The notes beneath the pieces were generated by a model. It was given only the letters and a program-made list of their open reading frames with translations, did no database searches and was not told where the DNA came from. Shown piece after piece: positions 30,851-36,232 of a stretch of DNA of 36,232 nt. Source of the stretch: an uncultured Clostridia bacterium (GTDB taxonomy: Bacteria > Bacillota > Clostridia > Oscillospirales > Ruminococcaceae); NCBI GenBank assembly GCA_947627465.1, contig CANQWD010000027.1, positions 1-36,232 on the forward strand, in the 5' to 3' direction. A program made the translations under genes and the position numbers. Position 1 is the stretch's first letter; each line of letters starts with the position of its first letter.

Positions 30851-31834
30851 ATGTTAGGAGAGGACAGTATTCCGCGATACAAATCAGCGCGGGATAAGGT
30901 CTGCATAGAATTTCAGAGAGGGCTTATGGGAAAAGTTTACAGACAGCAAAGGGTAGAGGGCGTAACTATCCCCGCAATTATCAAAAACGGCAATTATTTT
31001 TGGCATAGTATGGCGGTCTACGAGGACGGCGCGGTGAGTGTTTGGGAAAAGGTCGATTTGGACGCTGTTCCGCAAAAGATTGCGAATAATAAGCTCTGTT
31101 TTCAAGTGCCCGTCGGCGCGGAACTGAGCGTTTTCGAGCTTTGCCGTCTTAAAATTACGTCTGCCGAGTGGAATTTTAACGAGCAGAGCTTTTATGAACA
31201 TATTGTCGATACGGTGAAGTCAATGAACCCAGAAATGGAAAATATTTACAAGACTACGCCGCGCGAGCACTCAAAATGGAAAGAGCACCACATTTGTTTT
31301 TCCGCATCTCCCACGCCTTGCAAACTCGGCGCGAGTTTTGGTTATGAACTGCTAAAGGGCGACAGCGCTCACATTTTTTTGCGGAAGGACGGCAAACTGC
31401 TTTTGACGGAACTGTATTGTTACAAGGACGAAACGTTCTCAATAGACGGCTTGGACGACTTTTTCGCGTTTGAGGATATTGAGCGTATGTTTAACGACAA
31501 AATACTTACTACAAAGCCGAAAAAGGGTGAGAAGATAACGCTGGGCGATTTGGGAACGGTCGGAGCGGAAGCGGACTGCGTTGTTTCGACAAACAACAAG
31601 CTTGCGGAACTCAAAAACAAGAGTTTGCGCGTTCAAGGAAAGCCCGACGCTCACGAAGCCGCGATAAACGCTTATCATGCGTATCTTGTCGAGCCGAACG
31701 ATTTTTATAAGGAACGTCTCCGCGAAGCGTATGAAGCCGTTCCCGAACACGAACGCTGTTATCTCGGCGATATGGACACGCGCGACGGCGATTTCCGCAG
31801 AATTTTGTATTCCGACGAAAAGAGGGAAGTATGA
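30851..31834 (+). CDS. Hypothetical protein upstream of the alkyltransferase-like gene
   Basis: A 327-residue (or 321) soluble protein I cannot assign. The N-terminal part (YKSARDKVCIEFQRGLMGKVYRQ) and central block IPAIIKNGNYFWHSMAVYEDGAVSVWEKVDL look like a beta-rich domain; the C-terminal part ends in PEHERCYLGDMDTRDGDFRRILY, a motif I recall from uncharacterised Firmicute proteins. The ATG at 30851 touches the terminator hairpin and has no ribosome binding site, while AGGAGAGG at 30856-30863 lies inside the frame, 5 nt before an in-frame ATT at 30869. True initiation may therefore be at ATT. Overlaps the next gene by 4 nt (ATGA). Confidence 0.8.
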   Translation: MLGEDSIPRYKSARDKVCIEFQRGLMGKVYRQQRVEGVTIPAIIKNGNYFWHSMAVYEDGAVSVWEKVDLDAVPQKIANNKLCFQVPVGAELSVFELCRLKITSAEWNFNEQSFYEHIVDTVKSMNPEMENIYKTTPREHSKWKEHHICFSASPTPCKLGASFGYELLKGDSAHIFLRKDGKLLLTELYCYKDETFSIDGLDDFFAFEDIERMFNDKILTTKPKKGEKITLGDLGTVGAEADCVVSTNNKLAELKNKSLRVQGKPDAHEAAINAYHAYLVEPNDFYKERLREAYEAVPEHERCYLGDMDTRDGDFRRILYSDEKREV

Positions 31835-32136
31835 CGACGTTCGAGAAAATCTACGAGGTGGTGAAGTGCATACCGCGCGGCAAAGTCGCGACTTACGGGC
31901 AAATAGCGCGGCTTGCGGGCAACGAAAAGTGGACCAGGGTAGTGGGCTACGCGCTCCACGCCAATCCAAAGCCCGATGAGATACCGTGCTTCCGCGTGGT
32001 GAACCGCTTTGGGAAGTTAGCTCCCGCGTTCGCGTTCGGCGGCATTAACGAACAGGCTAAGCTGCTTCGCGCGGAGGGCGTTGAGGTCGAGGATAACACG
32101 GTCGATTTGGAAAAGTATCTGTGGAACGGGTTATAA
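31831..32136 (+). CDS. MGMT/alkyltransferase-like protein with PCFR active-site variant
   Basis: A 101-residue single-domain protein of the Ogt/MGMT DNA-binding family: FEKIYEVVKCIPRGKVATYGQIARLAG, RVVGYALHANP, then IPCFRVVNRFGKLAPAFAFGG. The canonical motif is PCHRVV; here Cys53 is kept but the His is Phe (Phe54). The arginine finger/HTH region is retained. In the true enzymes this His activates the Cys thiol; the alkyltransferase-like (ATL) group instead loses the Cys. So alkyl-guanine recognition without efficient transfer is plausible. It lacks the N-terminal domain of Ogt. ATG at 31831 overlaps the upstream stop (ATGA). Confidence 0.9.
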   Translation: MTTFEKIYEVVKCIPRGKVATYGQIARLAGNEKWTRVVGYALHANPKPDEIPCFRVVNRFGKLAPAFAFGGINEQAKLLRAEGVEVEDNTVDLEKYLWNGL

Positions 32137-32180: not shown

Positions 32181-32211
32181 ATCTCCCTCAATGCGGTTGG
32201 GGGATTTTTTT
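32181..32211 (+). terminator. Rho-independent terminator
   Basis: ATCTCCC... pairs with ...GGGGGAT (32181-32187 with 32199-32205, one G-T pair), followed by a run of seven T. It ends the transcript of the alkyltransferase-like gene. Confidence 0.85.
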
Positions 32212-32241: not shown

Positions 32242-32270
32242 TTGATTTTTTGACGAAAATATGAGATAAT
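32242..32270 (+). promoter_or_regulatory. Promoter for the pseudo-ATPase / PopT pair
   Basis: TTGATT (32242-32247), 17-nt spacer, GATAAT (32265-32270). A start near 32277 would leave only about 6 nt before the ATG at 32283 and about 36 nt before ATG 32313, which favours the latter. Confidence 0.7.
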
Positions 32271-32312: not shown

Positions 32313-34784
32313 ATGGCGTATTTTTTTGATTTTGAACAGGACTACACGGGGCTGGATTCTAAAAAAACAGATAAAATGCTCTCGATGTACGGTCTGAATA
32401 CATATACGAAAGCTCCGGAAACTATCTTCAGTTCGTCTTACGCGGACGTTCTGTTGTCGCCGTCCGTGATTTTGATGTTCGTTGCGGGTGTTTTGAGCTT
32501 TTTCGCTATCGGTACGGGCGCGGCGATAGTTACGCTGCTTATCGATCTTATATATATTTTCGCCGAGGCATATTTCCGAAAAAAGTCCGACGAACAGCTT
32601 GATGAGATCGAAGCGTCTACGGCTATGAAATTCCGCGTTATCCGCAGCGGAAAGCTGGAGCTTGTTGAAAAGGAATTCATAGTTCCCGAAGATCTGATAG
32701 TCATTCAGGAGGGCGAGCGTGTCCCTGCGGACGCATTTATTCTCGAATCCCGCGATCTGACTGTGGACGAGAGTATTTTCACGGGAAGCAAAGATCCTGC
32801 GCCGAAATATGCGGGCGCTATTTCCAAAAACAGCATTAAGCCGACCTTCGTTTACAGCGGCTCATCTGTTTTAAGCGGAATAGCGATATGCAAAGTAAGC
32901 GCGACGGGTGTTGATACAAAGCTTTATCAGCTTCATGGAGAAATTCCCGAACGTCATCCGTATTACACCAAGCTGGAAAAATATGTTAAATCAAATGTTC
33001 CGATATGCAGTGCGGTGGGAGTTGCACTAATTCTGTTGCTTACAATTATGAAAGCCGCAAACGGCGGAGACGTTGTGCCGTCCGCTATAAGCGCTATCAC
33101 GGTAGGTCTTTGCTTTATCCCGACGGGTATAGCGTTTATAATAAGACTTTATTACACCAAAGGCGCTATGCAGATAATCAAAAACGGCGCGCTGATGAAA
33201 TCATTCGCCGACATAGAAAAACTGAATTCGCTGAGCGTTCTTTGCGTTGAAAAAGAGGGCGCGATATCTAAAAATTCCCTTGAGGTGCGCGGAGTTTACG
33301 CAAAAAGCGAGGAACTCCTTTATAAAGTTGCCGCGCTTGCTTTCGACCGAAATACGGTTGACCCCGCCGAGCGTGCGTTTATGGTAAAGGCGACGTTTTT
33401 TGATGAAAACATTGCGGACGTTTACAGAAACAACGAGCTGCTCGAGAAAATTCCCGACAGAGGAAACTCGATAAGCGGCGCGGTGTGGAACGTTGGCGGC
33501 GAGAAGATATGCTGTGTAAAGGGCACTCCCGAGCAAATTCTTCCGCTTTGCAGAATTAGTAGCGACGCGCTTTATAAGGCCCGTCAAAAATACGAAAGCT
33601 ATTATGCGAACGGGTGCAGCGTTATGGCGATAGCGTGTGTGGACGCCGAAAACAACGGCACGGATTTTACCGCCGGATTTTCCTACACGTTTGTCGGAAT
33701 GATAGCGTTTTCCGCGCCGCTGCGCGATTCGGTGTCCTCGGCGGTAAAAACCTGTCACCGCGCGGGAGTGCGGATCGTAATGCTTACCGAGGATAACCCC
33801 GGCGCGGCGGCTTCAACGGGCGCGATGATAGGTCTTTCCGTGAAGAACGTCGTTACGGGCGAGCAGATAGATGAAGCGCTTAAATTGGGCAGTGATCTTG
33901 ATTTGGACGCGGAGATCTACGCAAAAGCAACTCCCGAACAAAAGGTTTATATTATAAACAGACTTAAAAGCGAGGGCGAGGTCGTCGCAATGACGGGAAC
34001 GCGCACGAGCGACGCGGAAGCGCTTGAAGCCGCCGACGTGGGCATTACGATAGCTCAGCATGCTTCGGGCAGCGTCTACGAAACCGCAGATATCATAATG
34101 AACGACGACAATTTCCTGACCATTGCCGATATGATATCCCGCGCAAGACAAATTCACCGCAACATTAAACGCGCGGTATCCGTACTTTTTTCGGGCTATA
34201 TCGGAATGCTGCTCATAACAGTCATAAACATTTTCCTAGGGGTCGGGCTTATGCTTACTCCCGCGGTTATCGCCGCTCTAACAATGATAATCCTGCCGCT
34301 TGCCGCTTCGGAATATTTCGGCGGCAATGCGGATATTCGGTCGAATATGCCGCCGTCGGGCTTCGTTGCGGAACACCGTATAAACTTCGGCTATGTAGGT
34401 CAGACCGCGTTTTTCGGCGCGGCTGCGGGCGGAGCGGCTGCCGCTTCATACGGCTTTATGTATAATGTAATGCCAATTGGCGTTGCGAGAAGCTGTTCGT
34501 TTATTTCGTTTATGATCTGTACAATGGCGTTTGTCATACTGCGTTTTTCGGACGCCGAACCGCTGAAAACCTTTTGGAACGCTCCGCGGCTGCAAAAGAT
34601 AATTGCTTTGGCTTTGACGGTACTGCCTTTTTTGATGATCTACGTTCCTCCGTTCAACAGGGCGTTCGGGTTCTCGGCGATCGATCCTCTTGCGCTGTTG
34701 ATAAGCATTGCCACGGGCATTTTGATACCCGCGATATATTTCTTTGTAAAGCGTTTCTTTAAAACAAATGCTGATTTCCAATAA
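32313..34784 (+). CDS. Catalytically degenerate P-type ATPase homologue
   Basis: An 823-residue protein with full P-type (P2/cation-pump-like) architecture: N-terminal GLDSKKTDKMLSMYGLNTY, TM1-2, actuator domain, TM3-4, P and N domains, then TM5-10 (first pair about 595-640). Catalytic motifs are altered: the phosphorylated Asp of DKTGT is Glu313 (VEKEGAISKN); TGES is TGSK (157-160); the TM4 PEGL is PTGI (270-273); GDGVND is GTRTSD (562-567) with only the second Asp kept. KGTPE and the HAD core are retained. The frame is intact, so this is a maintained pseudo-pump, not decay. ATG 32313 is preferred over 32283 on promoter and homology grounds. popT follows after 12 nt. Confidence 0.88.
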   Translation: MAYFFDFEQDYTGLDSKKTDKMLSMYGLNTYTKAPETIFSSSYADVLLSPSVILMFVAGVLSFFAIGTGAAIVTLLIDLIYIFAEAYFRKKSDEQLDEIEASTAMKFRVIRSGKLELVEKEFIVPEDLIVIQEGERVPADAFILESRDLTVDESIFTGSKDPAPKYAGAISKNSIKPTFVYSGSSVLSGIAICKVSATGVDTKLYQLHGEIPERHPYYTKLEKYVKSNVPICSAVGVALILLLTIMKAANGGDVVPSAISAITVGLCFIPTGIAFIIRLYYTKGAMQIIKNGALMKSFADIEKLNSLSVLCVEKEGAISKNSLEVRGVYAKSEELLYKVAALAFDRNTVDPAERAFMVKATFFDENIADVYRNNELLEKIPDRGNSISGAVWNVGGEKICCVKGTPEQILPLCRISSDALYKARQKYESYYANGCSVMAIACVDAENNGTDFTAGFSYTFVGMIAFSAPLRDSVSSAVKTCHRAGVRIVMLTEDNPGAAASTGAMIGLSVKNVVTGEQIDEALKLGSDLDLDAEIYAKATPEQKVYIINRLKSEGEVVAMTGTRTSDAEALEAADVGITIAQHASGSVYETADIIMNDDNFLTIADMISRARQIHRNIKRAVSVLFSGYIGMLLITVINIFLGVGLMLTPAVIAALTMIILPLAASEYFGGNADIRSNMPPSGFVAEHRINFGYVGQTAFFGAAAGGAAAASYGFMYNVMPIGVARSCSFISFMICTMAFVILRFSDAEPLKTFWNAPRLQKIIALALTVLPFLMIYVPPFNRAFGFSAIDPLALLISIATGILIPAIYFFVKRFFKTNADFQ

Positions 34785-34796
34785 TTGGGAGGGTAT

Positions 34797-35648
34797 ATGA
34801 AAAAATTTTCGGAGTATCTGAAATATTTTGTCTGTGGAGTCGTGTTTGGAATAGCAAATGTCATTCCGGGAGTAAGCGGCGGCACTATGCTGGTGGTTTT
34901 CGGAGTGTTCGACAGGCTTACCGAAGCGATCTCGGGGATAAAAAAGATAATACACAATTTAGCGTTTCTTGTGACGTTCGCGGTCGGCGCGGGCGCGGGT
35001 ATCTTGCTTTCGGCAAAGGTAATAGGCTCGTTGTTCAAAACCTACGCCGTGCAGACGAATATGTTTTTTATAGGGCTTATTTTGGGCGGAGTTCCTCTTA
35101 TCATAAAACTGGGAACGGCGGAGAAAAAAGTAAAGCCGCTGTGTATAGTGCCTTTTTTAATATCAATGGCGTTGGTGGTGGGGCTTTCCGTGCTCGAAAA
35201 GCTGGACATTCTCTCTATGAATGTGGAAAACGTCACGGGCTTTGACGCGGTTTTTTCGCTGAAAATGATAGCCTGTGCCGCAATCGCCGCAGTTACAATG
35301 ATAATCCCTGGCATTTCGGGTTCGTTTATGATGATGCTTTTGGGAGTTTACGAAACGATAATCGGTGCGCTGAACGATATGAATTTTTATGTTATCATTC
35401 CTTTTGCGGTAGGAGCTGTGATCGGAATAATCTTCGGCGCGAAGCTTATATCTCTGCTTATTGAGAAGAACAAGCTTATGGTGTATTCGGCAATATTGGG
35501 AATGGTTATCGGTTCTGTATACGCGATTTTGCCCGAGGGCTTCGGGTTTAACTTGCAAACCGGTTACGGCTTTGCTTTTATGCTTATCGGTATGCCGCTG
35601 TCCGCTCTTATTGAAAAACTGGGCGGCTCGGAGGGCGACGCAAATTAG
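34797..35648 (+). CDS. popT: DUF368 undecaprenyl-phosphate translocase, PopT family
   Basis: A 284-residue polytopic membrane protein (about eight helices) with the DUF368 signature near the N-terminus, VVFGIANVIPGVSGGTMLVVFG, and its internal-repeat counterpart MIIPGISGSFMMMLLGVYE near residue 170. DUF368 proteins (PopT) were recently shown to return undecaprenyl phosphate, the wall-lipid carrier, to the inner leaflet. The frame begins at a TTG at 34785, but ATG 34797 with GGGAGGG at 5-nt spacing is chosen. It is cotranscribed with the degenerate P-type ATPase, 12 nt upstream, and is followed by a terminator. Confidence 0.9.
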   Translation: MKKFSEYLKYFVCGVVFGIANVIPGVSGGTMLVVFGVFDRLTEAISGIKKIIHNLAFLVTFAVGAGAGILLSAKVIGSLFKTYAVQTNMFFIGLILGGVPLIIKLGTAEKKVKPLCIVPFLISMALVVGLSVLEKLDILSMNVENVTGFDAVFSLKMIACAAIAAVTMIIPGISGSFMMMLLGVYETIIGALNDMNFYVIIPFAVGAVIGIIFGAKLISLLIEKNKLMVYSAILGMVIGSVYAILPEGFGFNLQTGYGFAFMLIGMPLSALIEKLGGSEGDAN

Positions 35649-35675: not shown

Positions 35676-35702
35676 GGCGCGATCGGTTTCGCGCCGTTTT
35701 GT
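35676..35702 (+). terminator. Rho-independent terminator after popT
   Basis: GGCGCGA (35676-35682) / TCGCGCC (35689-35695), 6-nt loop, followed by GTTTTGTT. Good intrinsic terminator 28 nt after the stop. Confidence 0.8.
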
Positions 35703-35836: not shown

Positions 35837-35998
35837 AGCCGCTTTTGAAAAGAAGATCAACCTCACGTCGTTTTTGCGGTATTTCGCGCAAAGCGCGAAA
35901 TCGCGGACGGCAGTCCGCGAGCAAAAATGATGCAAGCAATAAGTGCTCGTCAAGCCGCGAAGCGGCGCAGACGAGCGCTATTGCGTTGTACAAATAAG
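35837..35998. repeat. Structured direct repeat, copy 1 (162 bp)
   Basis: Direct repeat of the unit at 36071-36232 (period 234 bp, no indels, seven differences, all transitions). It consists of consecutive perfect inverted repeats: TTTCGCGC/GCGCGAAA (35882-35900, loop AAA); TCGCGGAC/GTCCGCGA (35901-35920, loop GGCA); and a nested stem at 35936-35984 with three helices, GCAATA/TATTGC, GCTCGTC/GACGAGC and GCCGC/GCGGC around loop GAA. Only short spacers remain unpaired. It has no coding features of its own. Either a structured RNA, a transcribed BIME-like element, or a miniature mobile element. Confidence 0.9.
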
Positions 35999-36034
35999 CC
36001 CCCGCGCAAAAAGCGCAAGGGCTTATTTGTACAA
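35986..36034. repeat. Long hairpin at the junction of the repeat units
   Basis: A perfect 16-bp arm pair TTGTACAAATAAGCCC (35986-36001) and its complement (36019-36034), enclosing a second stem GCGC/GCGC around AAAAA. The left arm overlaps the 3' end of repeat copy 1, and copy 2 ends with the same arm at the window edge, so the hairpin probably recurs beyond 36232. Confidence 0.85.
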
Positions 36035-36070: not shown

Positions 36071-36232
36071 AGTCGCTTTTGAAAAGAAAATCAACCCCGC
36101 GTTATTTTTGCGGTATTTCGCGCAAAGCGCGAAATCGCGGACGGCAGTCCGCGAACAAAAATGATGCAAGCAATAAGTGCTCGTCAAGCCGCGAAGCGGC
36201 GCAGACGAGCGCTATTGCGTTGTACAAATAAG
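36071..36232. repeat. Structured direct repeat, copy 2 (162 bp, reaches window end)
   Basis: Second copy of the 162-bp unit. Compared with copy 1 it differs at seven sites (36073, 36089, 36097, 36099, 36103, 36104, 36155), all transitions, and none falls within the three main hairpins. The unit is still matching at the last base of the window, so the array likely continues. The 36-nt stretch between the hairpin and this copy is not repeated at the left side of copy 1. Confidence 0.88.

Follow-up and report, generated by a model that had tools for sequence, protein, structure and literature searches.

A P-type ATPase-fold gene followed by a DUF368 gene

The window, a stretch of 36,232 nucleotides from an uncultured Clostridia bacterium, carries at 32313..34784 on the forward strand a gene for a P-type ATPase-fold protein of 823 aa. 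The frame is open up to its stop codon, and the ATG at 32313 is the conserved start, as orthologues from the same genus open with MA.FF.F or MA.FL.F at that point. Profiles place the protein in the P-type superfamily (Pfam PF00122, 3.1e-28; NCBIfam TIGR01494, 155.1 bits at a cut-off of 62.3), and it stays under the cut-off for all other NCBIfam models listed, including the more specific ones. The AlphaFold model (pLDDT 85.5) shows A, P and N domains together with ten membrane helices, the latter count being taken from this prediction, with 7 clear segments in a plain hydropathy scan, and its best Foldseek match is Na,K-ATPase (E 4.8e-45). By descent, as read from its domains, M1-M10 fold and superfamily profile, the protein is thus a P-type ATPase. 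The uninterrupted frame and intact P-type fold with about ten membrane helices claimed in the original prediction, which had proposed structure modelling as a check, are borne out by these results. The same genome contains four other PF00122 matches, and the three aligned by BLAST keep DKTGT.

The next gene, at 34797..35648 (+) and with GGGAGG upstream of its ATG, encodes a PopT-like protein of 283 aa belonging to the undecaprenyl-phosphate translocase family DUF368 (PF04018, 3.9e-41; 141.7 bits at a gathering cut-off of 26). It shares its DUF368 assignment with known PopT/DUF368 systems, but its score with the PopT equivalog model NF052563 (125.9 bits) is below the cut-off of 400. Consensus scans of the forward strand gave a terminator-like hairpin with a 9-bp stem and a T run between the pair and the upstream gene (32184..32204), a promoter-like site TTGATT-17-GATAAT with a TG before the -10 element (32242..32270), and a further terminator-like hairpin after the popT-like gene (35676..35695). 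These consensus matches would frame the two genes as one unit.

Other features were found on either side of the pair. A protein with DUF7638 and DUF7639 domains is encoded at 30851-31834, followed at 31831-32136 by a short Ogt/alkyltransferase-like protein (PF01035) with PCFRV at the position of what we take to be the expected motif, PCHRV; this may be a changed DNA-repair protein. At the contig end, a repeat of ~160 bp occurs twice (35838-36000 and 36074-36232, 96% alike). It has 9 matches in its own genome, two of which touch contig ends, so a break of the assembly here is possible.

Catalytic and ion-site residues of the window protein

Sequence and alignment show that most motifs of the P-type cycle are altered (all coordinates on the forward strand). 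The DKTGT motif is replaced by E313-K-E-G-A (33249..33263), with Glu in place of the phosphorylated Asp, and T157-G-S-K stands in place of TGES (32781..32792), with S159 at the position of the actuator Glu. In the membrane domain, P270-T-G-I replaces PEGL (33120..33131), removing the ion-site Glu of M4. T492-E-D-N is found instead of TGDN (33786..33797), and G562-T-R-T-S-D instead of GDGVND (33996..34013), where the first Asp is lost (T563) and the second, D567, is kept. Also retained are K544 and the nucleotide-domain motif K403-G-T-P-E (33519..33533). The replacement of the catalytic Asp by Glu313, the changed TGES, PEGL and GDGVND motifs, and the preserved KGTPE had all been noted in the original prediction. 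A sequencing error in this genome can be excluded, since Glu is found at position 313 in 31 tabulated genus orthologues besides the window protein; named genome records from this group, where they extend over the position, have it too. Thus, the phosphorylated Asp, the Glu of TGES and the first Asp of GDGVND, which mark the enzyme, are all missing, as are the M4 ion-site Glu and the M6 Asp of P2-type cation pumps. Judged from its sequence, the window protein has almost certainly lost the P-type cycle.

A family found in three genera

We obtained 224 loci with a match and kept from them 150 distinct proteins that cover 700 or more profile positions. Shorter proteins (L077, L092, L093, L211, L212, L219 and L220 among others) were left out of this set. 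Proteins missing at least one of E183, D351, T355, D703 and D707 (SERCA numbering) were assigned to the family, and those with all five were regarded as intact, which gave 102 and 48 proteins, respectively. L095, a protein from Patescibacteria that has TGKS but whose other motifs are intact, was set aside by hand, leaving a family of 101.

Among 61 genomes of relatives, 37 (counting that of the window) belong to the same genus, and 35 of these encode an orthologue, in some cases as a contig-end fragment; the two genomes lacking it are 73% and 80% complete. The phosphorylation site reads EK[E/K/Q]GA in all 32 tabulated genus proteins, and the DKTGT motif that, if present in close relatives, would have argued against the original prediction is absent from them. 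Frames are open over the full length in the large majority of genomes and broken in two genomes of the genus (G019 and G028), perhaps as a result of assembly. A recent loss private to this genome can be ruled out, as the same residues recur across genus genomes and named records.

A second group of ten loci among the named genome records (31.5-34% identity, EK[S/T]GT) was assigned by profile searches to a sister genus of the same family (g28), in which a match at 1e-120 is found for 66 of the 71 genomes. Most of the distinct g28 proteins retain the Asp and have lost other motifs (DKTGV with GIGAAD, DKSGM with GETASD, DKSAV with GYSDSD), and a few have GKDSV, DINSV or LSHDS at the phosphorylation site. 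One genome of a further genus (G885) encodes a protein with NKAGG. Family members were found only in these three genera (g1, g28 and g462), which belong to one family of uncultured gut bacteria, and the other matches retrieved were all intact PEEFP pumps. No others were found in the genome samples of the family (n = 247), order (n = 394), class (n = 391) and phylum (n = 299), which were searched at cut-offs of 1e-140 or 1e-130 with 2 to 4 candidates scored per genome, so that very degenerate relatives could be missed (the protein of genome G1030 scores 1.4e-136). A pseudo-pump widespread in bacteria is thus not supported.

The closest intact proteins are the PEEFP-type cation ATPases (L038, L139-L148 and L151-L155), which have the same A/P/N layout and a similar length and are 26-31% identical to the window protein but, unlike the family, have intact DKTGT, PEEFP and GDGVND motifs and the Glu of TGE. 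In a tree of 66 of the 150 proteins, calculated with the motif columns masked, the sampled family members including those of g28 form one clade (SH-aLRT 100), sister to the PEEFP pumps. The suggestion that homologues be tested for conservation of the altered motifs as a clade is thus answered in favour of a common origin.

Residue loss, selection and newly conserved positions

Within the clade, the five catalytic residues have been lost to very different extents. D707 is kept in 94 of the 101 members and D351 in 45, and the remaining three are rare (T355, n = 13; D703, n = 7; E183, n = 1). The M4 ion-site Glu and the M6 Asp are absent throughout (0/101 for both), compared to their presence in 47/48 and 96% of the intact pumps, respectively, and a Glu at position 272, beside the lost M4 Glu, is retained in 33/101. 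At the position of K544, 81 members have Lys and 19 Arg. The nucleophile position holds E, D, G, N or S, with phosphorylation-site variants differing by lineage (EKEGA, EKSGT, DKSAV, GKDSV, NKAGG), and D351, D703 and D707 are jointly kept in six members (L168, L170, L175, L196, L198 and L199).

Parsimony on a second tree (85 rows) required three changes for Glu at position 313, five for the loss of Asp and one for an Arg in M4 (R278, see below). A single Asp-to-Glu event is disfavoured by these three changes, which were counted on a tree that was built quickly, includes long rows (L150, L138) and has open forks at its base. Provisionally, the ion-site and actuator residues were the earliest to be lost, at the base of the clade or close to it, and the phosphorylation site decayed later and by separate routes; this order is provisional because of the open basal forks and some long rows. 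Loss of pumping near the base of the clade would have left the phosphorylation site free to decay separately in each lineage.

The family shows no general decay of the kind (dN/dS near 1) that would have spoken against the original prediction. Nei-Gojobori dN/dS ratios were 0.033-0.162 over 33 family pairs and 0.087 for the window protein and its nearest relative (L045), in estimates that take in up to a dozen pre-start codons and many dS values above 1. For pairs of intact pumps, ratios of 0.072-0.133 were obtained in 3 of 6 cases that were measurable, the other 3 being saturated and giving no ratio.

Conservation at several positions is specific to the family and not shared by intact pumps, most clearly at R278 in M4 (33144..33146, +). 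All 101 members have Arg here, whereas none of the 48 intact proteins does (Thr in 46, Ala in 2). Its location follows from the alignment, in which it stands opposite T316 of SERCA2. E222 and D201 are likewise present in 101/101 members and not conserved in intact pumps. Conserved charged positions in the helices are few: besides R278, an acidic residue at position 85 in M2 (82/101) and positions near helix ends such as 222, 612, 615 and 619.

Conservation along the protein also differs between the two groups. In family subgroups A, B and C, the actuator domain has the highest within-group identity (0.71, 0.77 and 0.54, respectively) and the membrane helices are the least conserved part (M3-4: 0.47, 0.60 and 0.34), compared to 18 intact PEEFP pumps in which M1-4 (0.68, 0.67) are better conserved than the actuator (0.58) and M5-10 (0.56) are about equal to it. 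The lower conservation of the family's helices relative to the head does not favour a route for lipid through the helices.

Linkage to PopT-like genes

The popT-like gene is a nearly constant companion of the family. In 50 loci (49 named and that of the window), it follows the ATPase gene in 44, and the remaining six have a contig end 0-480 nt away. Over the whole set, a PopT-like gene is located downstream on the same strand within 1.6 kb in 92 of 94 family members (92/95 before L095 was set aside) and in none of 43 intact P-type ATPases, as determined with four PopT queries (tblastn, 1e-6), a search that a very divergent DUF368 gene beside an intact pump could escape. The 94 are the members for which a match was found or 600 nt or more of sequence was available; 7 more have no such room. 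None of the PEEFP pumps with sufficient room has a PopT-like gene behind it. The gap between the two genes, measured to the tblastn edge (n = 92), is below zero in 20 cases, 0-100 nt in 61 and longer in 11. Clustering of the flanking genes recovered the PopT-like gene at 90 of 100 family loci as the sole neighbour common to all three subgroups, shadow frames aside; small frames were discounted as such by their position. Neighbours common to two subgroups exist, for example an upstream frame at 4 A and 4 C loci that looks like an ABC exporter.

Eleven genomes of the window's genus contain a second, free-standing DUF368 gene (L230-L240), which has no family pseudo-pump beside it. In the PopT tree, paired copies form a group apart from the free-standing ones of the same genus (modest support, 86-90). 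Three free-standing copies sampled from the order (L242, L247 and L248) fall on the paired side with long branches. Distances among paired ATPases and PopT-like proteins are correlated (r 0.80 over 87 pairs, 0.66-0.75 within subgroups; no control gene), a value that shared descent alone could produce.

The loci vary in further ways. The PopT-like proteins are longer in subgroup B, part of C and a few members of A (L063, L064, L067 and L080), with an insert between the two halves. They reach 361-396 aa in named loci (L064:12470-13657, L083:12548-13666, L089:11446-12576), and a Pfam search with the insert gave only a weak CBM_2 match (E 0.49). At three subgroup B loci, a gene for a calcineurin-like phosphoesterase (PF00149, tested in L090) is located between the pseudo-pump and popT genes (L089:10476-11381, L090:12459-13277, L091:12468-13292), and a phosphotransferase-like gene (PF01636, tested in L083) follows popT at L083:13718-14476 and in 7 further loci of this subgroup. 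These two genes and the ABC-exporter-like frame were set aside as lying outside the core.

The pairing is strong, not absolute. No DUF368 gene was found in genomes G1030 (96% complete) and G1023 (86%), though both keep a family member; the proteins concerned (L213 and L249 in G1030, L212 in G1023) are very degenerate (DINSV, DIDSI). R278 is kept in the G1030 protein, one of the most degenerate, and thus does not depend on PopT. In G885, DUF368 fragments are found on contigs other than that of the family member, and in G1034 and G1057 DUF368 is present and no family member reaches E 1e-120. G1030 and G1023 represent a natural test for the role of the pseudo-pump without PopT.

Possible functions of the pseudo-pump

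The loss of pumping in the family is strongly supported by sequence comparison. As the fold is kept under selection while the phosphorylation residue varies between D, E, G, N and S, it has a use other than pumping. The P-type pseudo-ATPase with a non-pumping role that the original prediction proposed is therefore supported by the clade-wide residue loss, the low dN/dS and the modelled fold, and a role as regulator, scaffold or sensor may be suggested.

We consider it somewhat better than an even chance that the window protein is a pseudo-pump working as a partner or regulator of PopT, a partnership to which the gene linkage points. Having descended from a cation-pumping P-type ATPase, the protein would have neither a phosphorylation cycle nor binding of the transported ion, and would be retained as a folded membrane protein for work with the neighbouring PopT-type undecaprenyl-phosphate (C55-P) translocase. 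The ten-helix body and the actuator-like cytoplasmic head could join PopT in a complex or gate such a complex, and R278, which lies in the cytoplasmic half of M4, could hold the lipid phosphate or stabilise this complex, so that C55-P return would be assisted or regulated. Gene linkage is not contact, and the 92 linked cases have common ancestry; physical contact with PopT, the direction of regulation, lipid binding and movement of C55-P by the neighbour are what we infer. Binding of the lipid phosphate by R278 is speculative. The more specific proposal of a dedicated C55-P recycling subunit, a dead pump that binds PopT, holds or senses the lipid phosphate through its M4 Arg and gates the translocase with its actuator-like head, is tentative and has perhaps one chance in three.

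DUF368 proteins were described as C55-P translocases in 2022, and their energetics and directionality are left open in the parts of the article considered here (Sit et al., PMC9876793), which also contain no mention of a P-type partner. A search of the open-access literature found no paper naming both DUF368 and a P-type ATPase, and none on a bacterial pseudo or inactive P-type ATPase by title and abstract, although such absence is weak evidence; the portions covered of a review of P-type ATPases (PMC10654040) likewise do not list such a bacterial class. A comparable protein is human TMEM94, which in the sections considered of PMC12134183 has a P-type-like ten-helix fold without TGES, no ATPase activity found, and a phosphatidic-acid-shaped lipid by M3, M4, M5 and M7. 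Another group reports it, in the part of PMC13322241 considered, to be a real Mg2+ ATPase. By description, the fold, the ten helices and the lack of TGES are shared with the family, but TMEM94 is a eukaryotic ER protein. LMCA1, SERCA and Na,K-ATPase are active pumps with catalytic residues, unlike the family. A non-functional fused pump domain (FUPA24) reportedly figures in a survey that Saier's group made of the P-type ATPases of prokaryotes.

Among the alternatives, the one that survives best and is still unlikely is a membrane protein that acts on its own as a sensor or scaffold for lipid, ion or nucleotide, makes no contact with PopT, and has its gene in the popT operon only through a common envelope role. 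It would explain why the protein is kept in G1030 and G1023 without detected DUF368, and R278 in the former, but not readily why the PopT-like gene alone among the clustered neighbours spans all three subgroups or why paired PopTs differ from free-standing ones of the same genus. We regard as improbable a passive pump, in which a channel or leak would supply or sense the ion gradient that PopT uses. M4 and M6 have lost their ion-binding acidic residues and the ten helices persist, and the part of PMC9876793 considered here suggests that DUF368 transport, if energy-dependent, may use sodium or another non-proton gradient; the scarcity of conserved charged helix positions and the low conservation of the helices argue against such a channel. 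Less probable again is retained enzyme activity, with the protein working as a phosphotransferase or ATPase, slow or altered, through Glu, another nucleophile or the Asp where this is kept. The 45 members with D351, the six that combine it with D703 and D707, and the Lys or Arg at the position of K544 would fit such an activity, but no member has all five catalytic residues (the definition of the set), the ion-site residues are missing in all 101, and the variety at the nucleophile position fits no shared chemistry. Finally, a decaying pseudogene, frameshift or assembly error, suggested by the several lost motifs and the broken frames in G019 and G028, has a negligible probability and is refuted for the family as a whole by full-length open frames in most genomes, dN/dS far below 1, invariant new residues, and the same residues in separate assemblies.

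An aspartyl-phosphate is what defines P-type ATPases, and in this bacterial clade of 101 distinct sampled proteins the residue concerned is D, E, G, N or S. The link of the family to popT-like genes makes it testable in laboratory strains whether PopT needs a partner and what a pump fold does without pumping.
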